This document shows positions 15,274-62,735 of a stretch of DNA of 64,000 nt, piece by piece. This DNA comes from Stentor roeselii (taxonomy: Eukaryota > Ciliophora > Heterotrichea > Heterotrichida > Stentoridae): contig RSEH01000124.1 in the NCBI GenBank assembly GCA_006503475.1, positions 62,001 through 126,000 of the forward strand, given 5' to 3'. The position numbers were made by a program, and so were the translations under genes. Every line of letters starts with the position of its first letter. Position 1 is the stretch's first letter. Below the pieces are notes generated by a model. It was not told the origin of the DNA, searched no databases, and saw only the letters and a list, made by a program, of their open reading frames with translations.

Positions 15274-18200
15274 TTAGTTCAAACCTGCTGAATTATCTCG
15301 CTTTTTTAGTGAATTCTGAGAATTCATGTCTTGGTTATATCGATTTCTATTTTTTCCAATTGATAAGTTTGATTGATTTCTAACTTGACTGGGTCTAGAG
15401 ATGTGCCTTCCAGTGTTATTTAAAGAAATTGATGAAGATTTGGATATATTTAATTTTTCTATAATGATTCTTTTGAAATATTGAAGGTTCTCAGACTGGC
15501 TATTTGAATTAATTGCTTGGTGTATTTCACAGGACTGGTTGTTGAAAAATTCTGAAAGAAACTCTATTTCTTTTATTTCACTTAAATATCTGAAAAATGA
15601 AATAAAATTTGTGGAAAAAATATTTTTCTTTGGATGAAGTTTAACTGGATATTCATTATTTTCAGTCTTGTAATGCATGAAATATTTCAAAATGTTTTGA
15701 ATGTACTGAGTAGTCTCACTGGTCTGCGTTCTTATTTTTAGATAAAAGGTAAGTAACTCAATTGTTATTGTAAAATCATGATAACGGTAATCAAAAGAGC
15801 AGATATACTTGATTATCCTTATAATTATACCCGATTGAAACCCATTTTCCGTTTTATACAACAGAAATTCTGAAAAAAACTTCGGAATGATTTCAATTAA
15901 ATTACTGCTTTTCACGAATTCAAGCCTGCTAATAAATTCTTCAATATTCAAGTTAATATATTCAGAAAGTTCTGTAACAAGTACTATTTCAAAACTTGTC
16001 GAAGAGTTTTCATTTGATTTTTTATTTTCAGGTTGAAAATTAAAGGATTTCATGAAGATCTGAGAGTATTTCAAGATTTCATTTTCGCTTAGATCCAGAA
16101 ATACACCTACTCTCAGCAGGAAATGTAAAAAGACCTTCGGGTATAATTTGTATTCAATCAATTTGTTTATTAAAAAATTGCAATCTTGACTGAAGAAGAT
16201 AAAACTATCAAATATTTTTTTGTTTTTACTGAAAATCTCAGGAATAAGTTGAACGCAAGACTTGTTGAAAATTTCGTGTTCGGTTTTTCGCATTTTGTAG
16301 AGAAGGATGTATGGAGTTCCTAAACTTTTGTTGGAGTTTAGGTTCATGTTTGGATTGAAGAGTTGATTTAGGTCGAAGGTTTCGATGGGAAAATAACTGA
16401 GTTTGTGATCATCAAGGAGCACCCAGAATTGGCTTTGTTTCAAATAGGTTACGTAGTGGCCAGCGTTACTATTCCCAAAATGAACAATAAATCCAATCAA
16501 CTCATAAATTTTGGAATTACTTTCAAAGCATTCTTTGATATCACAGAAATCATTAATTTTTACAGTAGTTTGATTATTCGGGTCGATTTTGAATCTATTG
16601 AATGAAATAATGAAATACTCTGGTGATGTGATTAAGTACTTAGTAGACTGTGTATTTATCGACCGACATTGAGTACAAATATTTTTATCAGCTTTGATCA
16701 AATTTCCATCTGTTTGAAAATAATTTCTGATAGTATCAACCCCATCAAGATCCATGTTAATCATGAATGTCTGTCCAGATGACGTCGAAGTCTTAGAACA
16801 ACTATTGCAATAAACACTCAATGAAAACTCAATCATTATATCTTCAAGCAAATAAGGAGCTTCTAACATATCTACTCTTGTAATCAATGACGATAAAAAC
16901 TCACTTGCATCATCTTGAACAAAAAAACTCAAATTTCCTTCTTTATATATAAATTTTTTTATGATTCTTTTAGATGAAACTGTTGAAAGATTAGAATAAG
17001 TTAACTTCGCCAAAATGTAACTTAAAGTATTTAAACTTTCATTGTTAGATCTCAGAAAAATCAACTTTTGGCTCAATGGTCGAATAGCGTTTAAAAATTG
17101 TAGACTTGAGTTGATATAGCAAGTATTTCCAAAATTTTTCAGACCTTTTAAGCCGATTTGGAAGCCTTTTGAGTACTTTTGATATTTATCTATTTGTTTA
17201 AGATCGATTCTTGTTGAAAAATCATAAATGTTGTTTAAAATTTTGAATATTATTTGATTTGAGTTGTAATCTTGTTCATTATAAGAAACTGAGAATGTTT
17301 TTATTCTAGATACTAAAATTTCATACCCGAGTCTTCTGGTTTCTTCATGTTTGAATTTTATTTTTGATTGGTTGAACATCCAGTCGTTTAAGGAATATAA
17401 GTCTATTTGCACATCACAGCATTCAAGGTTTTTCAAGGCAAGTAAGTAGTTGAAAAGGTTGATGTTTGAAAATTCTGATGAATTTTCAATTTTTTTTTTT
17501 ATTTCATGGAAAAAACTAACTGATAGATTTTTTGAGAGTAAAATTGAATTTAGAACAGTGGATATGTAAATGTAATTTTTTGATTCGAGGAGGTGGAATA
17601 GGTACTTTTTTACTATTGGGTCTAGGGTTCCTCTTGGAAAAAGGATAATAGATTCATCGATTTGATTGAAATTTATATTTGTATTGTAGATCAAGTAAGG
17701 TTTTATAAAAGATTCTAGTGTGAAAAATGATTTTTCTTTGAAATTTAAAAATGACTCAATATATTTTTCGAATTTTGAGGAATCATTAAGTCTTATATCG
17801 TAGTCGTTATAATTGCAAATCAGGTTTGGGTCTAAATCTTCTTCAGAAGATGTAGAAATTTTTAAAAAACAGTCATATGCGATTGAGTTTAGTTGATGAT
17901 CTGATAGAATATCTGGAATTTTGATGAAAAAAATTAAGATTTTCTGATTGATTATTGGAATATGTTTATAATGCTCATATTCTTTTTTTATAATTTCTTT
18001 ACTTTTTAAAATATGATTATGATTTAGTGATTTAATTGAGTACAAAAACGATAAGAAGGAGTTTTCTTCATTTTTTTCTGTATTTAAGTCCAAACCTTCT
18101 ATCAAATCAGGAATAAATTTATAGTATTTTTTATCTATAGTTTGCCATAGCTCACTTTTTAAATATATTTTATTTATTTTGTAAAGAATTCTGCTCTGAT

Positions 18201-20361
18201 TATCAAATGAAAGAACCAATTCATTATTTTCTGTTCTTCCTTCTATTAGGTTCTGAGGATTTATATTTAACTTTTCACATATATCTATATAAAAATCATC
18301 TGTTTTATATTCATAAGGTGATTCAATGGTGATAATATTATTTTGTGTTCTTATTTTATATTCTCTTTTATTTCCTCTAAATGGAACTCTTGTATTAATG
18401 CCAGCTAATTCAATCATAAGTCGATCAAATTGAGTTTTATATAAATGGAAGCTCTGTTCTTCGTTTAAGTATGTTTTAATCCTTAAATAATCTAAATTTT
18501 CAGTCGAGTAGTTCAAAAACCTTGTAATAAATTCCAAATAGTCACATATAAGCTGCTCATCATTCAACCTTAAATAGGTAAAAATTAACTGGCCAAATAA
18601 TCCAAAATTTCTATTCGTGAAGTACAAAATTTTTTTGTTGAATTTTTGAATCTGATTCTGCTTTTGTAAGAAAATCAAAAAAGCCTTTGGAATTTGAGAG
18701 CAATTTTCATGACTTGTAAAATAATTAGCAAGCCTTTCATCGTAAGCATTTAAAATATTATTTTCAATCCAGTTGCAAAGAAGATCCTGTAAATTTGAAA
18801 GTGATTTCATATCATATAAAATATTTTCTATGATATTAAAATCAGCTAAACTTTGACTAAACAAAAACTCGAGAATTTTTGTTATTTTTTGTAATGTTTG
18901 TTGATTATGAACAAACTTTAATTGATTTAGAGTTGTATAACTTATTTTTAGCCTTTTTTCTATTATTTTTAAAGCTTCAAATTCACGATTTTCGAGTATT
19001 TTATAAAAAAAATCAATTAATTTTTCGTTTTGTTCAAAAGAATTTTTATATTTTTCGAAGATTTCAAGTTCAACATCTAATGACTTATCAAAAGGTAAAA
19101 CTTCAAGCAGTAGCATATCGTCTTTAATCAAAGTTTTTATGTAATTCCTTTGTTCCTTTTTGGTAATAATTAACTTACAAGCTTCTTTTAAATAAAGTTT
19201 CTTACCAGGAAAATTAGAGCAAATCATCTGCTCAAGATATGTCATAACAACATTTTCACTCATAAAATTGATCAACTGATAAAAAGTTCTGAAATAAGAA
19301 TTAATCACAACATCAAATGTAATACTTTCAAATATTTTCCTTAAAACCTCAGAAGTAATTCCATTATTTTTCAGGAAATGCTCTAAAATATTCTTCGAAG
19401 CATCTAAAAGACTTTCATGTGAAAAAATCACTATTAAATACTTTTCACAGGTATTTTGAGGTAATTTCAACTCTCCAGCAAGACTCAAAAATTTCGCAAT
19501 TTCAAGTTTTTGAACAATCTGCTCAGACTTCAAGAAAAAACTGCTACAAATATCAACCATTGCACTTTTCAACCTATTCTCCTTAATTAAACCTTGCAAC
19601 AATTTTTCCGTCTGTTCAATATCAAAAGACCTTGATTCTTTCAAACTCAGACCATTACAAAACTTAATAAATTCTTTCAAAAATCTAGAATCCGGTTGTA
19701 TCAAAAAGTTCTTAAAAAAAGAATTAAAAAAGTAAAACATCCTCAAACAAGCCCTTCTGAAAAACTTTTCTAAAAATTCTTGAATGTTCGTAATAAAAAG
19801 ACTTCTAAAAAATCCTTCATCCTTCAGGATGTCAAGTCCAGGAGCATCAAAATTATCAGCGCCTTTAAAAATCCATTCTATTATTTTTCCAAGTTCTTGC
19901 CAACCGATAACACAAAAATTTTCTTTATTTTGGAATTTTTCCCCGAATTTATAGTCTTGATTCGTTATTAGTTTCACTGCGGCGAAGACTATTTTCTTAC
20001 AAACATCAAGGAAAGATGGCTTCCATTCAGGGTATTCAGAGTAGTTTAAGGTCATCATCTGGTTAAAGGCGAAGAAGATCACTCCTGAGATTTTATTTAG
20101 AAAGCGTTCTTCTTGATTTGAGAATAGGTACAAGTCGAGTTCTGTTGTTATCTGGGAAAAATCCATAAAGTTCAAGTTGTTGAGAAGATCTTCTGAGCCT
20201 TCTAATGTTTCAGTGTTTGTTCGGAAATGACTTAGTCGAGGGTCGGTTATTGAGACTGTCTCTGAGGATGAGTCTTGATTCGTTATTTCGATGGTTAATT
20301 CGGTTATTTTTAGAACTTTATAGACTTTCCAGCCACGCTGTCTGAACTCAATAAACTCCAT
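15274..20361 (-). CDS. Giant ubiquitin carboxyl-terminal hydrolase (USP family)
   Basis: The 1695-residue deubiquitinase has its USP domain in the middle-to-C-terminal part. The Cys box GLKNFGNTCYINSSLQFL has catalytic Cys near residue 1081. A zinc-binding pair of CxxC motifs follows (YCNSCSKTS and CTQCRSI). The His box GNSNAGHYVTYLKQ has catalytic His near residue 1302, followed by WVLLDDHKLSYF. The roughly 1000-residue N-terminal part is all-helical without recognised domains, as in USP9X/USP34-type large enzymes. The insertion-free USP core is compact. The C-terminus is Asn/Ser-rich. It should cleave ubiquitin from substrates; specificity is unknown. Confidence 0.92.
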   Translation of the reverse strand: MEFIEFRQRGWKVYKVLKITELTIEITNQDSSSETVSITDPRLSHFRTNTETLEGSEDLLNNLNFMDFSQITTELDLYLFSNQEERFLNKISGVIFFAFNQMMTLNYSEYPEWKPSFLDVCKKIVFAAVKLITNQDYKFGEKFQNKENFCVIGWQELGKIIEWIFKGADNFDAPGLDILKDEGFFRSLFITNIQEFLEKFFRRACLRMFYFFNSFFKNFLIQPDSRFLKEFIKFCNGLSLKESRSFDIEQTEKLLQGLIKENRLKSAMVDICSSFFLKSEQIVQKLEIAKFLSLAGELKLPQNTCEKYLIVIFSHESLLDASKNILEHFLKNNGITSEVLRKIFESITFDVVINSYFRTFYQLINFMSENVVMTYLEQMICSNFPGKKLYLKEACKLIITKKEQRNYIKTLIKDDMLLLEVLPFDKSLDVELEIFEKYKNSFEQNEKLIDFFYKILENREFEALKIIEKRLKISYTTLNQLKFVHNQQTLQKITKILEFLFSQSLADFNIIENILYDMKSLSNLQDLLCNWIENNILNAYDERLANYFTSHENCSQIPKAFLIFLQKQNQIQKFNKKILYFTNRNFGLFGQLIFTYLRLNDEQLICDYLEFITRFLNYSTENLDYLRIKTYLNEEQSFHLYKTQFDRLMIELAGINTRVPFRGNKREYKIRTQNNIITIESPYEYKTDDFYIDICEKLNINPQNLIEGRTENNELVLSFDNQSRILYKINKIYLKSELWQTIDKKYYKFIPDLIEGLDLNTEKNEENSFLSFLYSIKSLNHNHILKSKEIIKKEYEHYKHIPIINQKILIFFIKIPDILSDHQLNSIAYDCFLKISTSSEEDLDPNLICNYNDYDIRLNDSSKFEKYIESFLNFKEKSFFTLESFIKPYLIYNTNINFNQIDESIILFPRGTLDPIVKKYLFHLLESKNYIYISTVLNSILLSKNLSVSFFHEIKKKIENSSEFSNINLFNYLLALKNLECCDVQIDLYSLNDWMFNQSKIKFKHEETRRLGYEILVSRIKTFSVSYNEQDYNSNQIIFKILNNIYDFSTRIDLKQIDKYQKYSKGFQIGLKGLKNFGNTCYINSSLQFLNAIRPLSQKLIFLRSNNESLNTLSYILAKLTYSNLSTVSSKRIIKKFIYKEGNLSFFVQDDASEFLSSLITRVDMLEAPYLLEDIMIEFSLSVYCNSCSKTSTSSGQTFMINMDLDGVDTIRNYFQTDGNLIKADKNICTQCRSINTQSTKYLITSPEYFIISFNRFKIDPNNQTTVKINDFCDIKECFESNSKIYELIGFIVHFGNSNAGHYVTYLKQSQFWVLLDDHKLSYFPIETFDLNQLFNPNMNLNSNKSLGTPYILLYKMRKTEHEIFNKSCVQLIPEIFSKNKKIFDSFIFFSQDCNFLINKLIEYKLYPKVFLHFLLRVGVFLDLSENEILKYSQIFMKSFNFQPENKKSNENSSTSFEIVLVTELSEYINLNIEEFISRLEFVKSSNLIEIIPKFFSEFLLYKTENGFQSGIIIRIIKYICSFDYRYHDFTITIELLTFYLKIRTQTSETTQYIQNILKYFMHYKTENNEYPVKLHPKKNIFSTNFISFFRYLSEIKEIEFLSEFFNNQSCEIHQAINSNSQSENLQYFKRIIIEKLNISKSSSISLNNTGRHISRPSQVRNQSNLSIGKNRNRYNQDMNSQNSLKKRDNSAGLN

Positions 20362-46438: not shown

Positions 46439-47635
46439 CTAATTAAACCTAATATAATCACCTTCCTGCCTTCTTCTTAAAATTCCAGCACCTAAAGCGA
46501 TCAAAGCAACACATCCAGCATAAATCCCGGCAGCAGATACTTGATAAAAATTATTAAAACCCTCAATTTCCCGATAAGCAGGAGCAACTAGAATATTCCG
46601 ATCCTTAACATTAAACACTGAATAATATTCTCTAAAAAACGGTTGTCCAGCAAGCCAAATATCCTTATACCCTAAAACAAGTAAATAGCAGTACTCAGTA
46701 TCATAAAAAATATAATTTTCTGCATGAATCACGTACTCATTTCCATCAATTTTAAATTTCAAGTCAGGAAACTGTGAATATTTCCCAAATTCACATTTAC
46801 AAATAGCGAGATCAGTCGTATCACAACCCTTAACATTTTGATTGATTTCTGCAATAAAAGCCTTGTAATTTTCATCAGGGAGTATATTGAATAAAAACCC
46901 AACTTCAAAGTAAATCCATGAATCCAACCCTGATGTTTTCTTCTCTCCAATTGAAAACTCTTCTATTTTACTTAACCAGAATGACTCATGAAAGACTTTG
47001 ATAAGATTCGGGGTGTTTCCATTTGAATAATAATTGAAATCAGATTCACCAACAGTAAAAGTGTCAGTAAGACTATTAAAAACATCAGAATTCGTCAAAA
47101 AGAAAGAAAAGACTGGTTCACTGATGACCTGTTGTTCAAAAAGTCTTTCAATAAAATTCACTTTTGGACTCAGATTAAGTCCGAAGCCGCCGTCACTCAG
47201 CATGTCTGTCAGTTGTTTATCTGAATCAACTAGTAAAAATCTCTCGTTTTCTAATGTTAAGTCACCGATTGTGATAGTGTCAGTCACATACTCGCCGGTC
47301 ACGGATCCGATCAGGTATTGATGGGTTGAAAAGTTTCCTGATGGAATGAATGAAGAACTCCAAGTGCTTTCAAATCTTTTTTCTGAATCGTGACAGTCAC
47401 ATCCTGTCGATGGCACCCAGGTGATGTTTGAGAGAAGGCTCGTTGTTAGGCTTAGTGTTTGTGCAGGGGTTCCGAATCCGATATCGATGCTGTATTCTAT
47501 GTTGAACATGTTCGTTATGTCAATCGAGGCCAGTGATAGTATCTTCAACTTCGAATTAGATTTCCAGACCTGGGACTTTTTTAAAGGAAATTTGTAGCTC
47601 AAGACTGTAGAGATAAACATCAAAAGGTAAATCAT
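46439..47635 (-). CDS. Pepsin-like (A1) membrane protein, catalytic Asp residues lost
   Basis: This 398-residue paralogue of the neighbouring gene has a signal peptide, IGFGTPAQTLSL, WVPSTGCDCH, LAGQPFFREYYSVFNVKD and a C-terminal membrane helix. First site: SLLSNITW instead of DTGSxxxW; second site: FEVGFLF instead of DTGTS. Both Asp are absent. It lies 73 bp upstream of the 45160 gene on the same strand, so the pair arose by tandem duplication. Confidence 0.85.
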   Translation of the reverse strand: MIYLLMFISTVLSYKFPLKKSQVWKSNSKLKILSLASIDITNMFNIEYSIDIGFGTPAQTLSLTTSLLSNITWVPSTGCDCHDSEKRFESTWSSSFIPSGNFSTHQYLIGSVTGEYVTDTITIGDLTLENERFLLVDSDKQLTDMLSDGGFGLNLSPKVNFIERLFEQQVISEPVFSFFLTNSDVFNSLTDTFTVGESDFNYYSNGNTPNLIKVFHESFWLSKIEEFSIGEKKTSGLDSWIYFEVGFLFNILPDENYKAFIAEINQNVKGCDTTDLAICKCEFGKYSQFPDLKFKIDGNEYVIHAENYIFYDTEYCYLLVLGYKDIWLAGQPFFREYYSVFNVKDRNILVAPAYREIEGFNNFYQVSAAGIYAGCVALIALGAGILRRRQEGDYIRFN

Positions 47636-47874: not shown

Positions 47875-48339
47875 TCAAACAAATAAATATTCTAATTTAA
47901 ACGCAGTACCTCTGAGTGTTGGATTAGAATTCTCAAATTTCTTTAACAGAATGTCTAACTCAACCTCAAGTTTTCGAGGACATCTTCGCTTCGTGACTGA
48001 TAATTTCTTAAAATTTTGCTTCCTTCTCACAATCTGAAAAGTTATTGGAAGATGAAAGGATTTGTGGCTCAGTTTTTTTTTGTCTTTTGCTCTTGTGAAA
48101 TTAGTCGGGGCGCTTCTTTTAAAAGGGATTTTTTCTGAAAAATCATTAATTTCATCAGATTCTTCATCTTTTGAAAAAAGTATCGGCTTTCTTCGAGTGA
48201 TAGGATTAGATGGGTCAAAATTAATGTCTTCTTCATCACTTTCGAGAAGATCTTGACGCAGATCGTGGAGTTCTATTGGCTTTTTGTCTTCGGGTTGATG
48301 GACTATCGTTTCTTGTTCATCTTGCGGGACCTGGCTCAT
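47875..48339 (-). CDS. Unknown 154-aa charged protein
   Basis: It has an acidic N-terminal half (SDEEDINFDPSNP) and basic C-terminal half (KKLSHKSFHLP, KRRCPRKLEVELDILLKKF). It is likely disordered and could bind nucleic acid or act as regulator. No family is recognised. Confidence 0.55.
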   Translation of the reverse strand: MSQVPQDEQETIVHQPEDKKPIELHDLRQDLLESDEEDINFDPSNPITRRKPILFSKDEESDEINDFSEKIPFKRSAPTNFTRAKDKKKLSHKSFHLPITFQIVRRKQNFKKLSVTKRRCPRKLEVELDILLKKFENSNPTLRGTAFKLEYLFV

Positions 48340-48857: not shown

Positions 48858-50914
48858 ATGCCTATAAAAATGTCCTGCGTCTTTCAAGGCTGCAAGAGCG
48901 AAATCAAAGCCTCTTGCAAAATTTGTTCGAATCGCATCTATTTCTGCTGTAATCATACAGAAAATCATCAAATTCAAACAGGTCACCTTCCCAAAAATTT
49001 ATCAACAAACGAACTGAAAATAATTTTACTGAAAGCACTGAAAATTCAAATCAAAAGATGCATTGTGAAGATGTCAAAAGATACCTCAGAGATCATTGAG
49101 ACATTGAACAAGTCTTCACTTCAAGCAATAAAAAATCTTAAAAAAGTCAATCAAAACTTGAAAAATGTCTTCGATTTCATCCCTGATACTTTCGATCGAG
49201 AAAGAATTTCTTTTCTTGTAAATGAAGCTCGACTTATTGACCAGAGCATGGAATTTTCACCACAAAGCCAAATAAAGACACTACGTCAAAAATTGGCTCA
49301 AGTTGATGAGATATGTGCAGCTAAAAGCGATTCTTTGACTAGATCGGAAAATGAAATTAAGAATCTATGGAAAAAACTGACAGTAAAAGATGAAATGTTA
49401 AATGAAAGACAACAAGAGATTGAATATTTGAAGAAAAATTTTCAAAAAAGTTTGGTAAAAAATTCAAAGGATATGGAATTTATTGAGAAGCAGCTTGATA
49501 ATAAAAATAAAGAGCTGGTCGAAAGTAACTGATTTTTTAGATTTTAATCAATCAATTCTCAAAGATAAACAAGCAAAACTTAGCTCAACTTTGAGTTTAA
49601 TTGGTGGAAAAAGATCACAAGATAAAGAACTTCTAAAAAGTCACGATGGAAAATATTTGTTCAGATGTATTCAAGAATTAGGTAAATGAAAGCGAGACTG
49701 TAGATTGAATTCAGATGGTTAATTATAATGAAGTTGATTCAAGTACTATAAATAAAAGTTTGTATCAAAAATTGAGCTTGTATCTATTATGTAAGCATGT
49801 AGGATTGATCTCAGTTTGTAACCTAAATCGAAGATTGTAATTTTTTCAAAGTCTGTAAATATCATCAAGGGAGTAGATGATTATGAAGTTAGTAACCTTA
49901 ATTGAAGTTTGTAATTCACATTGAAGTGAGTTAACTTCATATAAGTTGGTATTATAAATGAAGCATGTATCAAATATAAAGTATGTCTCGAATATACAGT
50001 TTGTAACCTTTATTATGTATGTGGGATGAATAACCCCGGTATTTGACTATAAAGAGAGTAAATATGAAAAGAGCGTATAACATAATGAGAAACAAACTCG
50101 AATCCAGGGAAAAATGAAGAAAAAAATTTTAATAAAGAAAGACACTCAACTCCGATAAAAAATGAGGATTGTAACTCATATAAAGCTAGTATACTTTACC
50201 AAAGCTAGTAATTTTGTGCAAAGTCTGTGAATATTATAGAAGTGAGTATATATAAAAAAGTCTGTATCCGACATCAAAGTTTGTAAACATAAAAAGGCTG
50301 TATGCTTTATAAAGCTAGTAAAATTTATAAAGTTGGTAAAATTTATAGAGTTGGTAAAATTTATAGAGTTGGTAAAATTTATAGAGGTCGTAACAGAAAT
50401 CAAGTTTGTATAACAAACAAAGATAGTAAAAAGCATGAAGTTTGTAAACAAAATTAAGGGTGTATAAAAAATGATAGATTGTATGAAATATGATAGGGAG
50501 TACTTTAAACAAAGTCATTACAAAAGTCTGTAACATAAAATTAGTGAGTGAGCAATTTCATAGATTGTAAAATTGATCAAGGTTGTATCATTCATCTTCG
50601 GTTGTATAAGATTTGAAGGCTGTAAAGTCAATTAAGATAGTAAGAAATTTGAAGGATGTAACTTCAAATAAGTTTGTAAACTTTATCGAAGGTTGTAAAA
50701 TTCAACAAGGCAGTATATCATATTAGCTCATAAATTGAATCAAGGCAGTACATGATATAAAGGCTGTTACCGATACTTAGTACAAGTTTGGAACCTTGAA
50801 ACTCAGGAAATGGAGAAAACCATAACAGGGGAAACGAATGAGCATAAAGGAGCTTATGGAAGGCGTTGGAAAGACCGCTACCCTGAATGTGTTTACAAAC
50901 AGTGGGGTTATTAA
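48858..50914 (+). CDS. Zinc-finger/coiled-coil/WD40-like protein interrupted by 53 micro-introns
   Basis: The opening exon (48858-49524) encodes a B-box-like finger (CKICSNRIYFCCNHTENH) and a coiled coil. A 16-nt intron (49525-49540) leads to an exon ending SHDGKYLFRCIQEL. Then 49682-50780 parses into 52 consecutive GT…AG units of 14-16 nt (one ends CG), separated by exons of 3, 9, 15, 21, 39 or 81 nt. The last exon (50781-50914) reads QVWNLETQEMEKT… and ends GAYGRRWKDRYPECVYKQWGY-stop. Spliced sum 1245 nt = 414 residues in phase 1, with no stop. If the whole array is removed instead, the product is 313 residues and SHDGKYLFRCIQEL joins directly to VQVWNLETQE, a WD40-strand pattern. The N- and C-terminal coding is secure; the product of the middle is not. 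Confidence 0.72.
49525..49540 (+). other. 16-nt intron
   Basis: GTAACTGATTTTTTAG covers an in-frame TGA. Removing it joins the coiled-coil frame to the next open frame (…KELVE-NFNQSILKD…). It lacks a clear A at position 10, so it is slightly weaker than the others. Confidence 0.7.
49682..50780 (+). repeat. Array of 52 intron-like units with trinucleotide exons
   Basis: Each unit starts GTA (or GTT, GTC, GTG) and ends AG; lengths are 14 (3 units), 15 (30) and 16 (19). An A occupies position 10 in most. Of 51 exons between them, 46 are 3 nt long (ACT, ATG, TTT, CTT, CAT…) and the other five are 9, 39, 81, 15 and 21 nt, all multiples of 3. Introns are A-rich, exons T-rich. Simple repeat reading gives an approximate 18-19-bp periodicity with core AG-NNN-GTA. 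The unit at 50585-50600 ends CG. Confidence 0.85.
50333..50389 (+). repeat. Three identical 18-bp units (TTG + 15-nt intron)
   Basis: TTG followed by GTAAAATTTATAGAG occurs three times without a mismatch (50333-50350, 50351-50368, 50369-50386). The preceding unit (50315-50332) differs slightly (CTA, TATAAAG end). This is direct evidence for recent local tandem duplication inside the array. Confidence 0.9.
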
Positions 50915-51151: not shown

Positions 51152-52345
51152 ATGCTCTTTCTAATCTTGCTCAGTCCTGCCTTAAGCCTAGTGCTGCCCT
51201 TGAGAGAAACTCAAGTAATGACATCATCCCCAAGAGATTCAGATAAAAAACTATCTCTTTCTTCTTCACCTGTCAAAATTTCCGAGAGCACCCAGCTGAG
51301 CACAACAATAGGATTCGGGACTCCAGTCCAAAACCTAACAATGCTATTAAACATGGCCTTATCCTACACTTGGGTACCTTCAACCACCTGCAACTGCCAT
51401 CAATCAAATTCAAGATTTGACTCAAGTAAAAGTTCATCTTATCAAAACCTTTCAACATCTGTATCTCTTGAATTTTTCCAAGTAAATGGAACTCTTTCAA
51501 GTGAAGAAGTCACTGTTGGTGACTTAGATGCTGATAACCAGACATTCATTCTTGCAAGTTTTGATAAAGATCTTGACGGGTTGAAAAGTGATGGAATGCT
51601 CGGCTTGGGGTTCAAAGAAGCATCAGATGGACATCTGACTTTTATTGAAAATTTGAAGGATCAAGAGGAAATTTCAAGAGCAGTGTTTTCGTTTTACTTA
51701 GATGGGTCGAATAGTGTTTTTACTGTTGGAGAATACGATTTTAAAGTGTATGGGACTGGGGAATATAAAAGTATTCAGGCTACGAATTCAGCTGGGTTTT
51801 GGACTACATCGGTTGAAGAGTTTAGAGTGGAAAGTACTTCTTTTGTTAATGATATTAACACAGTTTTTTTCAATATTGGAAATGAAAAATTAGTTGTTCC
51901 TAAAGATGTTTTAGATGGGTATTTTGAAAAAGTTAGTAGAAAAGTCAATGCCTGTATCAATCTGGGATTTATGGTGAGTTGTGTTTGTGAACCTGGAGAA
52001 TATGATGATTTTCCGGATTTGGAAATAAAGATTAGTGGAAATTATTTTAAGATACAAGCGAAAAATTTCATTCATGCTTATAGTAAGAATTGTGACTTGT
52101 TACTTGAGAGTGGATATGATAAGTTGGTACTTGGAAAACCTTTCTTTGAAGAGTATTATACTGTGTTTGATATGGATAACATGCAGGTTTTAGTTTCAGG
52201 TTCTGCTAAAGAGAGCGGGAATGGTAATGGGATTTTTTATTATGCTTTAATTGCTGGGGCTGCTGTTTTAGTGGTTATTATTGTGATTATTGTTTGGTTA
52301 TTGATACGCAAAAAGAAGCCAAGTGATTATCATAGTCTTAGATAG
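51152..52345 (+). CDS. Pepsin-like (A1) membrane protein, catalytic Asp residues lost
   Basis: The 397-residue protein has a signal peptide (MLFLILLSPALSLVLPL), IGFGTPVQNLTM, WVPSTTCNCHQS, LGKPFFEEYYTVFDMD and a C-terminal membrane helix with basic stop-transfer (VVIIVIIVWLLIRKKK). Site one: LNMALSYTW, so the DTGS Asp is missing; site two: FNIGNEKL. It is therefore predicted inactive. The flanking disulfide Cys pairs are retained. It lies just downstream of the micro-intron gene. Confidence 0.85.
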   Translation: MLFLILLSPALSLVLPLRETQVMTSSPRDSDKKLSLSSSPVKISESTQLSTTIGFGTPVQNLTMLLNMALSYTWVPSTTCNCHQSNSRFDSSKSSSYQNLSTSVSLEFFQVNGTLSSEEVTVGDLDADNQTFILASFDKDLDGLKSDGMLGLGFKEASDGHLTFIENLKDQEEISRAVFSFYLDGSNSVFTVGEYDFKVYGTGEYKSIQATNSAGFWTTSVEEFRVESTSFVNDINTVFFNIGNEKLVVPKDVLDGYFEKVSRKVNACINLGFMVSCVCEPGEYDDFPDLEIKISGNYFKIQAKNFIHAYSKNCDLLLESGYDKLVLGKPFFEEYYTVFDMDNMQVLVSGSAKESGNGNGIFYYALIAGAAVLVVIIVIIVWLLIRKKKPSDYHSLR

Positions 52346-61541: not shown

Positions 61542-62735
61542 ATGGAAGGACTTACCTCTGGCCTTTCCGTGAAAGACCGAATGAAAATGTTTCAAAAACC
61601 TGCAGAAGACCCGAAGCCAAAAACTGAGATTTCGACTGGAGTGAGTATAAAAGATCGACAAGTGAATTTCGCGAATAAACCTCAACCAGTGAATCAATTT
61701 GTTCCTTCTTCGAACTCTGGAGCTAGGTCTTCAATTCCCGCTTCGAATCCTCAGGTTGTTTCGGGCTCTTCGAATTTTAACTTGGGAAATCCGGCGAGTA
61801 CGACTTCGAACACTGCAACTAGTTATCAGACTGAAGCACCTGGAAATACTGGACTTAGTGTTAAGGAAAGAATGGCTCTTTTGCAAAGTAATAAAACTAT
61901 GCAAGAAAAAAAAGATCCTCCTTTTGTACCGAGTAGTCAAAAATCGAGTTTTAATGTGGGTGGTGGGAAAGGGTTGGAAAAGGAAGAAAATAAACCGGAA
62001 GTTGGCCTGGTCAACCGTCTATCATCATCATTCGCTCCATCCCCCCAAGTGGCCAAGCCCGAGCCACCCCCAGCAACCGGTCTAGTAAATCGTCTATCAT
62101 CATCATTCGCTCCATCTCCCCAAGTGGCCAAGCCCGAGCCACCCCCAACAACCGGTCTAGTAAATCGTCTTTCATCAAGTTTCGCTCCATCTCCCCAAGT
62201 TTCAAAATCAAATCCATTCGAAGAAGCTTCAAACGTGAAAGAAGTTGAAAAGCCTCAGATATCGACAGGAATGAGCATCAAGGAAAGAATGGCAGCGCTG
62301 CAGCAGTCTTCAAAGCCAGGGAATGAAAGACCTTCTTTGAATGCTTATGTGCCAAGTGGCCCCTCGATTGCTGATCGGATTAATTCAGTGCAGGAGTCTA
62401 AAGCGCAGTCTTCGATTCATAGAGCGAAGACTGAAGATGTTCGTGAAAGTGACGTTCGAGGGATCACTTCGAAGTTTGAACGTCAGAGTCTCAATGAACC
62501 TCCTAAACATGCACAGAGCATCAATACTGGAAGGACTGGAGGACTTGATAATGACTTTAGGAAAAAAATGGAAGGCATGGTCTTCATGCCACCACCACCT
62601 GGAGGGATGCCTGTTAGGAGTAGGGAAAGAGAGGTCGAAGAGGTCTCGAGACAGAGTAAAAGTGAATTGGTAGAACTTGATAAACCTATTAGGAAAAGAG
62701 CTGCTGCTACCTTTGATGATGATTTCGAGTTTTAA
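61542..62735 (+). CDS. Disordered repeat protein with (S/V)KxRM motifs
   Basis: The 397-residue Pro/Ser-rich protein has a recurring short motif: GLSVKDRMKMFQ, GVSIKDRQVNF, GLSVKERMALLQ, GMSIKERMAALQ and GPSIADRINSVQ, spaced through the chain. Residues about 155-225 contain a 25-residue tandem repeat (see the 75-bp repeat). A C-terminal acidic stretch ends FDDDFEF. The repeated amphipathic motif suggests several copies of one binding site, perhaps for actin or another partner; this is inference. Confidence 0.7.
   Translation: MEGLTSGLSVKDRMKMFQKPAEDPKPKTEISTGVSIKDRQVNFANKPQPVNQFVPSSNSGARSSIPASNPQVVSGSSNFNLGNPASTTSNTATSYQTEAPGNTGLSVKERMALLQSNKTMQEKKDPPFVPSSQKSSFNVGGGKGLEKEENKPEVGLVNRLSSSFAPSPQVAKPEPPPATGLVNRLSSSFAPSPQVAKPEPPPTTGLVNRLSSSFAPSPQVSKSNPFEEASNVKEVEKPQISTGMSIKERMAALQQSSKPGNERPSLNAYVPSGPSIADRINSVQESKAQSSIHRAKTEDVRESDVRGITSKFERQSLNEPPKHAQSINTGRTGGLDNDFRKKMEGMVFMPPPPGGMPVRSREREVEEVSRQSKSELVELDKPIRKRAAATFDDDFEF
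62004..62201 (+). repeat. 75-bp tandem repeat, 2.6 copies
   Basis: Units begin at 62004, 62079 and 62154 and encode GLVNRLSSSFAPSPQVAKPEPPP plus two linker residues. The DNA is much more GC-rich than its surroundings and the first two units differ at only a few positions, pointing to recent expansion. Confidence 0.9.

Follow-up and report, generated by a model that had tools for sequence, protein, structure and literature searches.

In the window (the whole stretch of 64,000 nt analysed here, C30:62001–126000 of a 44.39 Mb genome in 522 contigs) we found a protein gene in which tiny introns of the heterotrich type very probably isolate single codons of a variable loop. The array in question lies at 49682–50780 on the forward strand, and its parse was rebuilt and checked unit by unit. 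The first-pass annotation had read it as 52 intron-like units of 14–16 nt, all of them GT..AG. Number and size range were recovered (30 units of 15 nt, 19 of 16 nt and three of 14 nt), as was the claim that the 51 exons between the units are all multiples of 3, with 46 of exactly 3 nt and one each of 9, 15, 21, 39 and 81 nt. Uniform splice-site letters were not: 51 units are GT..AG and one, at 50585–50600 (+; GTATCATTCATCTTCG), is GT..CG, representing a damaged or non-canonical splice site or an assembly error. The single phase-1 open frame described previously, running from DGKYLF through the array to a TAA at 50912, holds given that this CG end is accepted, and retention of the unit would put the reading out of frame. 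The full parse depends on allowing the CG end because a strict GT..AG parse breaks the frame: the best stop-free solution of that kind comprised 50 introns and, besides 40 exons of 3 nt and one of 0 nt, had five longer exons that are multiples of 3 and three exons of 22 nt, which break the frame. Forcing the chain to GT..AG and multiples of 3 left 47 units, and permitting odd ends with a penalty gave an optimum of 55 units, three of them non-canonical, that differs from the annotated parse. Directly upstream, a canonical 15-nt unit at 49667–49681 (+), beyond the range first annotated, abuts the array with 0 nt between and would be its first intron; the frame is open with or without it.

The array was also analysed with a frame-blind parser, which scores GT/AG (both mandatory), unit length, position 3 and position −3, applies mild penalties to exon length and to 0-nt exons, and ignores frame and multiples of 3. 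This returned 52 introns and 44 exons of 3 nt for the window array, compared with a mean of 8.9 introns (maximum 24) and a mean of 0.2 exons of 3 nt (maximum 2) in 300 dinucleotide shuffles of the same sequence. No other run of four or more such units was found in the window on either strand when the best chain per 800-nt segment was taken. A collinear repeat protein was considered and rejected, there being no ORF of ≥ 30 aa that spans the array; reassignment of stop codons was likewise rejected, as TGA acts as a stop like TAA and TAG in the long ORFs of the window. A search of the window for RNA genes gave no Rfam match at gathering score and no tRNA by ARAGORN.

All parts of the array gene lie on the forward strand. 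Its N-terminal coding exon (48858–49524, within ORF 48858–49532) is Cys/His-rich, B-box-like by eye only, with a coiled-coil-like region, and showed no Pfam family at E ≤ 0.01. It is followed by a putative ordinary 16-nt intron at 49525–49540 (GTAACTGATTTTTTAG), proposed from the sequence and the frames of two ORFs, which would align the N-terminal frame with that of the DGKYLF exon; its position 10 is T, making it weaker than most introns of the array. The pre-array exon ends at 49645–49666 with the 5′ half of a conserved hairpin (DGKYLFR plus T). Within the array, two of the longer exons, both open in phase 1, stand out: a 39-nt stretch at 50000–50038 that may hold decayed units, and a hydrophilic 81-nt exon at 50090–50170. 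The 3′ exon (50781–50911, LQVWNLETQEMEK...RRWKDRYPECVYKQWGY) supplies the 3′ half of the hairpin and a conserved C-terminal tail, and ends at the TAA stop (50912–50914). Eukaryotic aspartyl protease genes (PF00026) flank the array gene at 46439–47635 (−) and 51152–52345 (+), with a small ORF at 47875–48339 between it and the left-hand protease gene. Elsewhere in the window, an ORF of 1695 aa with a ubiquitin hydrolase (UCH) domain occupies 15274–20361 (−), and a 75-bp tandem repeat (2.5 copies, 94 %) at 62016–62200 lies within ORF 61542–62735, which has no Pfam family at E ≤ 0.01 and probably encodes a repeat protein.

The window gene belongs to a family. Its N-terminal part (48858–49532) matches the genome in at least 123 places at E ≤ 0.001, with 150 of the 178 candidates scored, and its C-terminal tail in 78; over both strands together the pattern AAGNNNGTA-N9/10-AAGNNNGTA was counted 339 times and the backwards pattern 70 times. 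The first-pass annotation lacked this family, as well as the 0-nt exons, the variability of the codon-exons and the doubt over a splice site of the window copy. For parsing we used the 48 distinct tail-bearing copies, the window gene included, that tblastn (E ≤ 0.01) detected in the stretches of the genome analysed; the search of the genome lists 78 tails. Frame-blind parsing of these members gave 696 introns (93 of 14 nt, 400 of 15 nt, 193 of 16 nt and 10 of 17 nt), and of the 648 exons between introns 608 were multiples of 3 (138 of 0 nt, 368 of 3 nt and 70 of 6 nt). Five dinucleotide shuffles of the 48 arrays yielded 35–57 multiples of 3 among 111–145 exons, with 1–8 exons of 3 nt; reversed arrays yielded 11 multiples of 3 among 30 exons, and reverse-complemented arrays four among 11. 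Chance periodicity is ruled out by these shuffled, reversed and reverse-complemented controls. The window array is the longest of the 48, with 52 introns by the frame-blind parse compared with 33 in the runner-up.

Half of the 48 members (24) have all their introns in phase 1 with respect to the frame of the tail; each of the remaining 24 has one or more introns out of phase 1, or a different phase. A frame-aware parser, which scored A at position 10 and forbade stops, found an all-canonical, all-phase-1 array in 29 members (351 introns, 4–32 per gene), phase 1 being a matter of selection in this clean set. Short clean arrays are found in L063 (C481), L049 (C288) and L008 (C409), and L100, L101 and L102 are similarly short by eye. 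Nearly all of the clean arrays (27/29) start with an intron followed by a 0-nt exon. Among the 19 members without a clean parse, six (the window gene among them, its anchor having been placed by hand for the window parses given above) were without the anchor used, and 13 had odd units or phases. These failures point to the existence of decayed copies or of splice rules beyond those we know, and decayed copies are likely to be among the 19. Two further loci, L098 (C39) and L099 (C23), are array-like but poorly readable by eye and were excluded from use; they are possibly decayed members. Several family loci lie within a few kb of contig ends (on C51, C82, C124, C235, C247, C285, C409, C493, C497 and C521), which may point to a subtelomeric placement.

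With the family in hand, we considered the possibility that the arrays are degenerate 18-bp minisatellites that remain unspliced, their GT and AG being simply the best-conserved repeat letters. Units measure ∼18–19 bp, the window copy includes near-perfect tandem stretches (50306–50386, 95 % matches), and one subfamily has many introns that nearly duplicate each other, as such a repeat would predict. A minisatellite would not, however, be expected to vary by 1–3 nt in intron length while 608 of 648 exons remain multiples of 3, nor to carry a frame that links the conserved coding sequences flanking it; position 10 is A, as in ordinary introns, and L064 presents the same anatomy with different intron sequences. 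We regard this explanation as very unlikely.

The proposal that the units are introns of heterotrich type, made in the first-pass annotation, gained support from their size (593 of the 696 family introns are 15 or 16 nt), their GTA start and AG end, the A at position 10 and an architecture shared across the family. Although position 10 was not scored by the frame-blind parser, it is A in 87 % of the 696 introns (45 of 52 for the window array); A occupies 28–45 % at positions 5–9, 11 and 12, 53 % at position 4 and 50 % at position 13. Split by length in 25 members, again unscored, A10 was present in 100 % of 23 introns of 14 nt, 90 % of 148 of 15 nt and 90 % of 103 of 16 nt, with position 11 being A in 35 % of those 103. 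In the annotated genome of Stentor coeruleus, 92.8 % of 8806 introns have a length of 15 nt and the remainder one of 16 nt; the branchpoint A falls on position 10 in 90.9 % of all introns and mostly on position 11 in the 16-nt class (PMC9505925). The array introns are thus like these in being 15–16 nt, GT..AG, A+T-rich and, at 15 nt, in having A10, and they differ in keeping A at position 10 where the 16-nt introns of Stentor are reported to have it at 11, which sets them apart from Stentor rather than from this class of introns, and in including lengths of 14 and 17 nt. They differ also in arrangement, with up to tens of introns crowding one loop and 3-nt or 0-nt exons between them. Beside 0-nt exons A10 was found in 128 of 143 introns, compared with 184 of 208 others, in a parse that scored A10. 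As the two frequencies are much the same, 0-nt exons seem to divide two complete introns.

Ordinary genes sampled in this genome have few introns: 16 of 17 chaperonin-family matches were without internal stop, and only 12 of 135 scored kinase domains (from 1346 candidates) contained one. For all 14 interruptions in those 12 kinase domains and one chaperonin domain, a 15-nt GT..AG word with A10 is a sufficient explanation, with the qualification that a few also fit other lengths and that for one of them two words of 15 nt are possible. We took ordinary introns from genes with internal stops because open-frame searches did not discriminate; searches of this kind gave seven GT..AG candidates against 3–13 for control dinucleotides in the window genes, and four against 3–14 in the N-terminal exons of the family, in neither case an excess. 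Genes for the spliceosome are present, namely Prp8 (PROCN domain) and U6. The PROCN match, at C315:8029–9246, lies within an open frame of 2296 aa, fitting few introns outside the arrays. Taken at the level of sequence, removal of the units from RNA by splicing would account for these features. Removal from DNA is the corresponding alternative, the units then being tiny internal eliminated sequences captured in a germline assembly. Ciliates do excise DNA precisely, even from coding sequence (PMC9942856), but the same word interrupts kinase genes in this assembly and constitutes the annotated introns of Stentor (PMC9505925), and GT..A10..AG is a splice signature; we consider elimination very improbable.

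If the units are spliced out, the question arises of whether the codons between them are kept. In the 25 members of the 48 whose exons are all multiples of 3 and ≤ 27 nt, stop codons at the junctions of the frame-blind parse numbered two of 241 for phase 1, compared with 11 of 266 for phase 0 and 28 of 241 for phase 2. Exon permutation across genes gave a mean of 8.6 stops, with none of 2000 trials at two or fewer; permuting within genes gave a mean of 7.4, with 1.1 % of trials at two or fewer. In the clean set, the first spliced loop codon, which is split by introns, specifies Tyr in 29/29 members, and the last specifies L, V, M, F or I in 29/29. The intron-bounded loops of these members are mostly 6–14 residues, with three of 25–40, and are rich in Y, D, G, S, F and N.

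These observations bear on a further alternative, namely that the whole array is one long intron that is removed by recursive splicing with its codons discarded. Zero-nucleotide recursive splicing is a device for long introns, and the arrays resemble it in having AG|GT junctions with no exon between; here, two words of ∼15 nt stand side by side. In favour of such a process, 138 of 648 exons are of 0 nt and have the anatomy of recursive splice points, and almost every clean array begins with one. Discarded codons would nevertheless have no reason to begin invariably with Tyr and end with a hydrophobic residue, or to be poor in phase-1 stops and not in phase-2 stops; exon lengths in threes and an open frame would be superfluous in a plain long intron, and the loop of L063 gives the spacing of a WD40 repeat (below). 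We judge recursive removal of the entire array to be the least probable of the explanations considered, and retention of the codons between heterotrich-type introns to be the better reading.

Joined by splicing, the flanks would bring together SNDGKYxFFY and L-x-VWNLETK as the paired strands of a WD40-like hairpin; the tail behind them has the consensus ARxWKDRYPECIYExWGY. Searches of Pfam with the spliced proteins found no family above cut-off, and the hairpin was not called WD40. When a profile of 14 spliced proteins was compared by hhalign with five WD40 repeats that this genome encodes at two other loci, the result was a probability of 96.8 % with a score of 47.05; 60 column permutations scored no more than 17.45, the 3′ part alone 24.5 and the 5′ part alone 28.7. 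Comparison with PDB gave RACK1 as the best match (E 0.48). Removal of nine introns from L063 leaves 17 residues from the D of DGKY to W, the same as in the intronless WD40 repeats of L096 and L097. By eye, the spliced proteins show one repeat-like hairpin, and a full propeller was not seen. On these comparisons, the spliced hairpin is likely a relative of WD40 rather than a proven member. In a search for intronless retrocopies we obtained 21 matches at E ≤ 0.1, of which two were contiguous (E 0.017 and 0.034); these are canonical WD40 repeats and not retrocopies.

The window copy itself calls for more caution than the family. Its loop is unusual, being long and largely hydrophobic, broken by the hydrophilic 81-nt exon, and clean splicing of this copy is doubtful given its GT..CG unit and possibly further decayed units. 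That the family is real and the window copy a decaying pseudogene is compatible with our preferred explanation, and we place its chances somewhat below even. Decay would fit the CG end, the possible decayed units at 50000–50038 and 50730–50744, the long hydrophobic loop and the 19 of 48 members that fail a clean parse; it sits less well with a reading that, save for one 3′ end, stays open and keeps its phase all the way from hairpin to stop, with an intact C-terminal exon and with an N-terminal ORF that is open.

We next turn to how the codons vary relative to the introns around them. A set of 83 units was drawn from 13 members picked for having three or more introns that start GTAACC, so that intron positions 4–6 are partly alike by choice; in this set the free intron positions carry 0.53–1.07 bits each, and the exon positions 0.08–0.18. 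Among 138 unit pairs with identical 16-nt introns, 18 had identical codons, with a letter identity of 46 % versus 28–32 % in other pairs. Comparisons between genes, within the clean set, listed 36 pairs with intron identity > 0.7, from among whose members the five close ones below are taken; the pairs are non-independent and their units were matched by introns alone. L049 and L061 have N-terminal proteins of 81 % identity; they share 36 of 39 fourfold-degenerate sites, and their introns agree at 89 % of 87 letters, compared with 30 % of 27 letters, which is chance level, in the loop exons. Summed over the ten pairs of five close members, introns agree at 720 of 819 letters (88 %), all exons at 98 of 195 (50 %) and inner exons at 65 of 141 (46 %), third positions agreeing at 140 of 200 just upstream (70 %) and 73 of 120 downstream (61 %). 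No such contrast was present in L065–L076 (introns 75 %, exons 73 %), L072–L069 (62 % and 61 %) or L068–L056 (37 % and 48 %); variable exons between steady introns were seen in one subfamily only. Diversifying selection, targeted mutation and exchange of units would each fit the contrast in this subfamily, part of which may come from homogenization of introns. Unit exchange would be the simplest route, because near-identical introns are natural homology arms.

Under the preferred reading, each intron of 14–17 nt would hold its 5′ site, its branchpoint A at position 10 and its 3′ site in one short word, and the spliceosome would take out each word alone, by intron definition, with neighbours removed one after another. 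Exons of 3 nt or 0 nt would be workable since recognition sits wholly within the intron. The mRNA, if expressed, would link the SNDGKYxFFY half to the L-x-VWNLETK half through a variable loop, mostly of 6–14 residues and in the clean set of up to about 40. One unit would correspond to one codon plus one intron in phase 1, such that gain, loss or exchange of units would alter the loop by whole codons and leave the frame intact. From this follows the tentative suggestion that codon-scale exon shuffling operates in a recognition-like family, with near-identical introns of 15–16 nt as homology arms around single-codon cassettes; the frame would be safe in such shuffling because the introns share phase 1 and the exons are multiples of three. 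We give this idea chances well below even, with some weight taken off since only one subfamily shows fast exons beside steady introns. Diversity might arise in the germline, in the polyploid macronucleus or through skipping of units, and the family looks built, or kept, for diversity of the loop.

Among known systems, the micro-exon genes of Schistosoma are alike in having runs of short exons, mostly in threes, and variable proteins, but their exons are mostly of 15 bp, at 10–20 per gene, with introns of 100 to almost 5000 bp; in the present family exons of 3 nt alternate with introns of 14–17 nt, up to about 52 of them, in one loop only (PMC10526429). Micro-exons of 3 nt and 1 nt in animals and plants establish that exons of 1–3 nt can be spliced, although they are isolated cases and not, as here, dozens one after another (PMC7392893, PMC4674806). 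The WD40 repeats of fungal NLR/HET proteins share with our family a WD scaffold, hypervariability at the level of the family, conserved repeats, shuffling and concerted evolution, and by this analogy a recognition role of the loop is suggested; in those proteins whole WD repeats are shuffled, whereas here it would be single codons, separated by introns, in one WD40-like hairpin (PMC4986451). Tiny introns, micro-exons and variable WD40 surfaces are each known. The first-pass annotation knew of no described gene with dozens of consecutive 3-nt exons, and we too found no gene family with an array of single-codon exons among titles and abstract beginnings of the open-access literature, which is not proof of absence.

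If the reading proposed here is true, the lower bound on the exon that a spliceosome needs drops to three letters, or even to none, and intron definition in heterotrichs becomes directly testable. It would also suggest that introns can serve as spacers, allowing a loop in a protein to be altered in steps of whole codons. Genes of this kind may escape standard gene finders and read aligners. More generally, the arrangement could reveal the limits to which splicing and gene diversity can be stretched.

Two arrays give additional detail at the level of single units. That of L064 (C493) contains four tandem ATGATT exons, which would give a YDYDYDYD loop, with three of the introns between or after them alike; a recent duplication of units is the likely origin of these exons. 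In L045 (C51) and L011 (C82), whose arrays were compared by eye and are near-identical, one 15-nt intron differs at two letters with its length and A10 kept, and the exons beside it show amino-acid changes.
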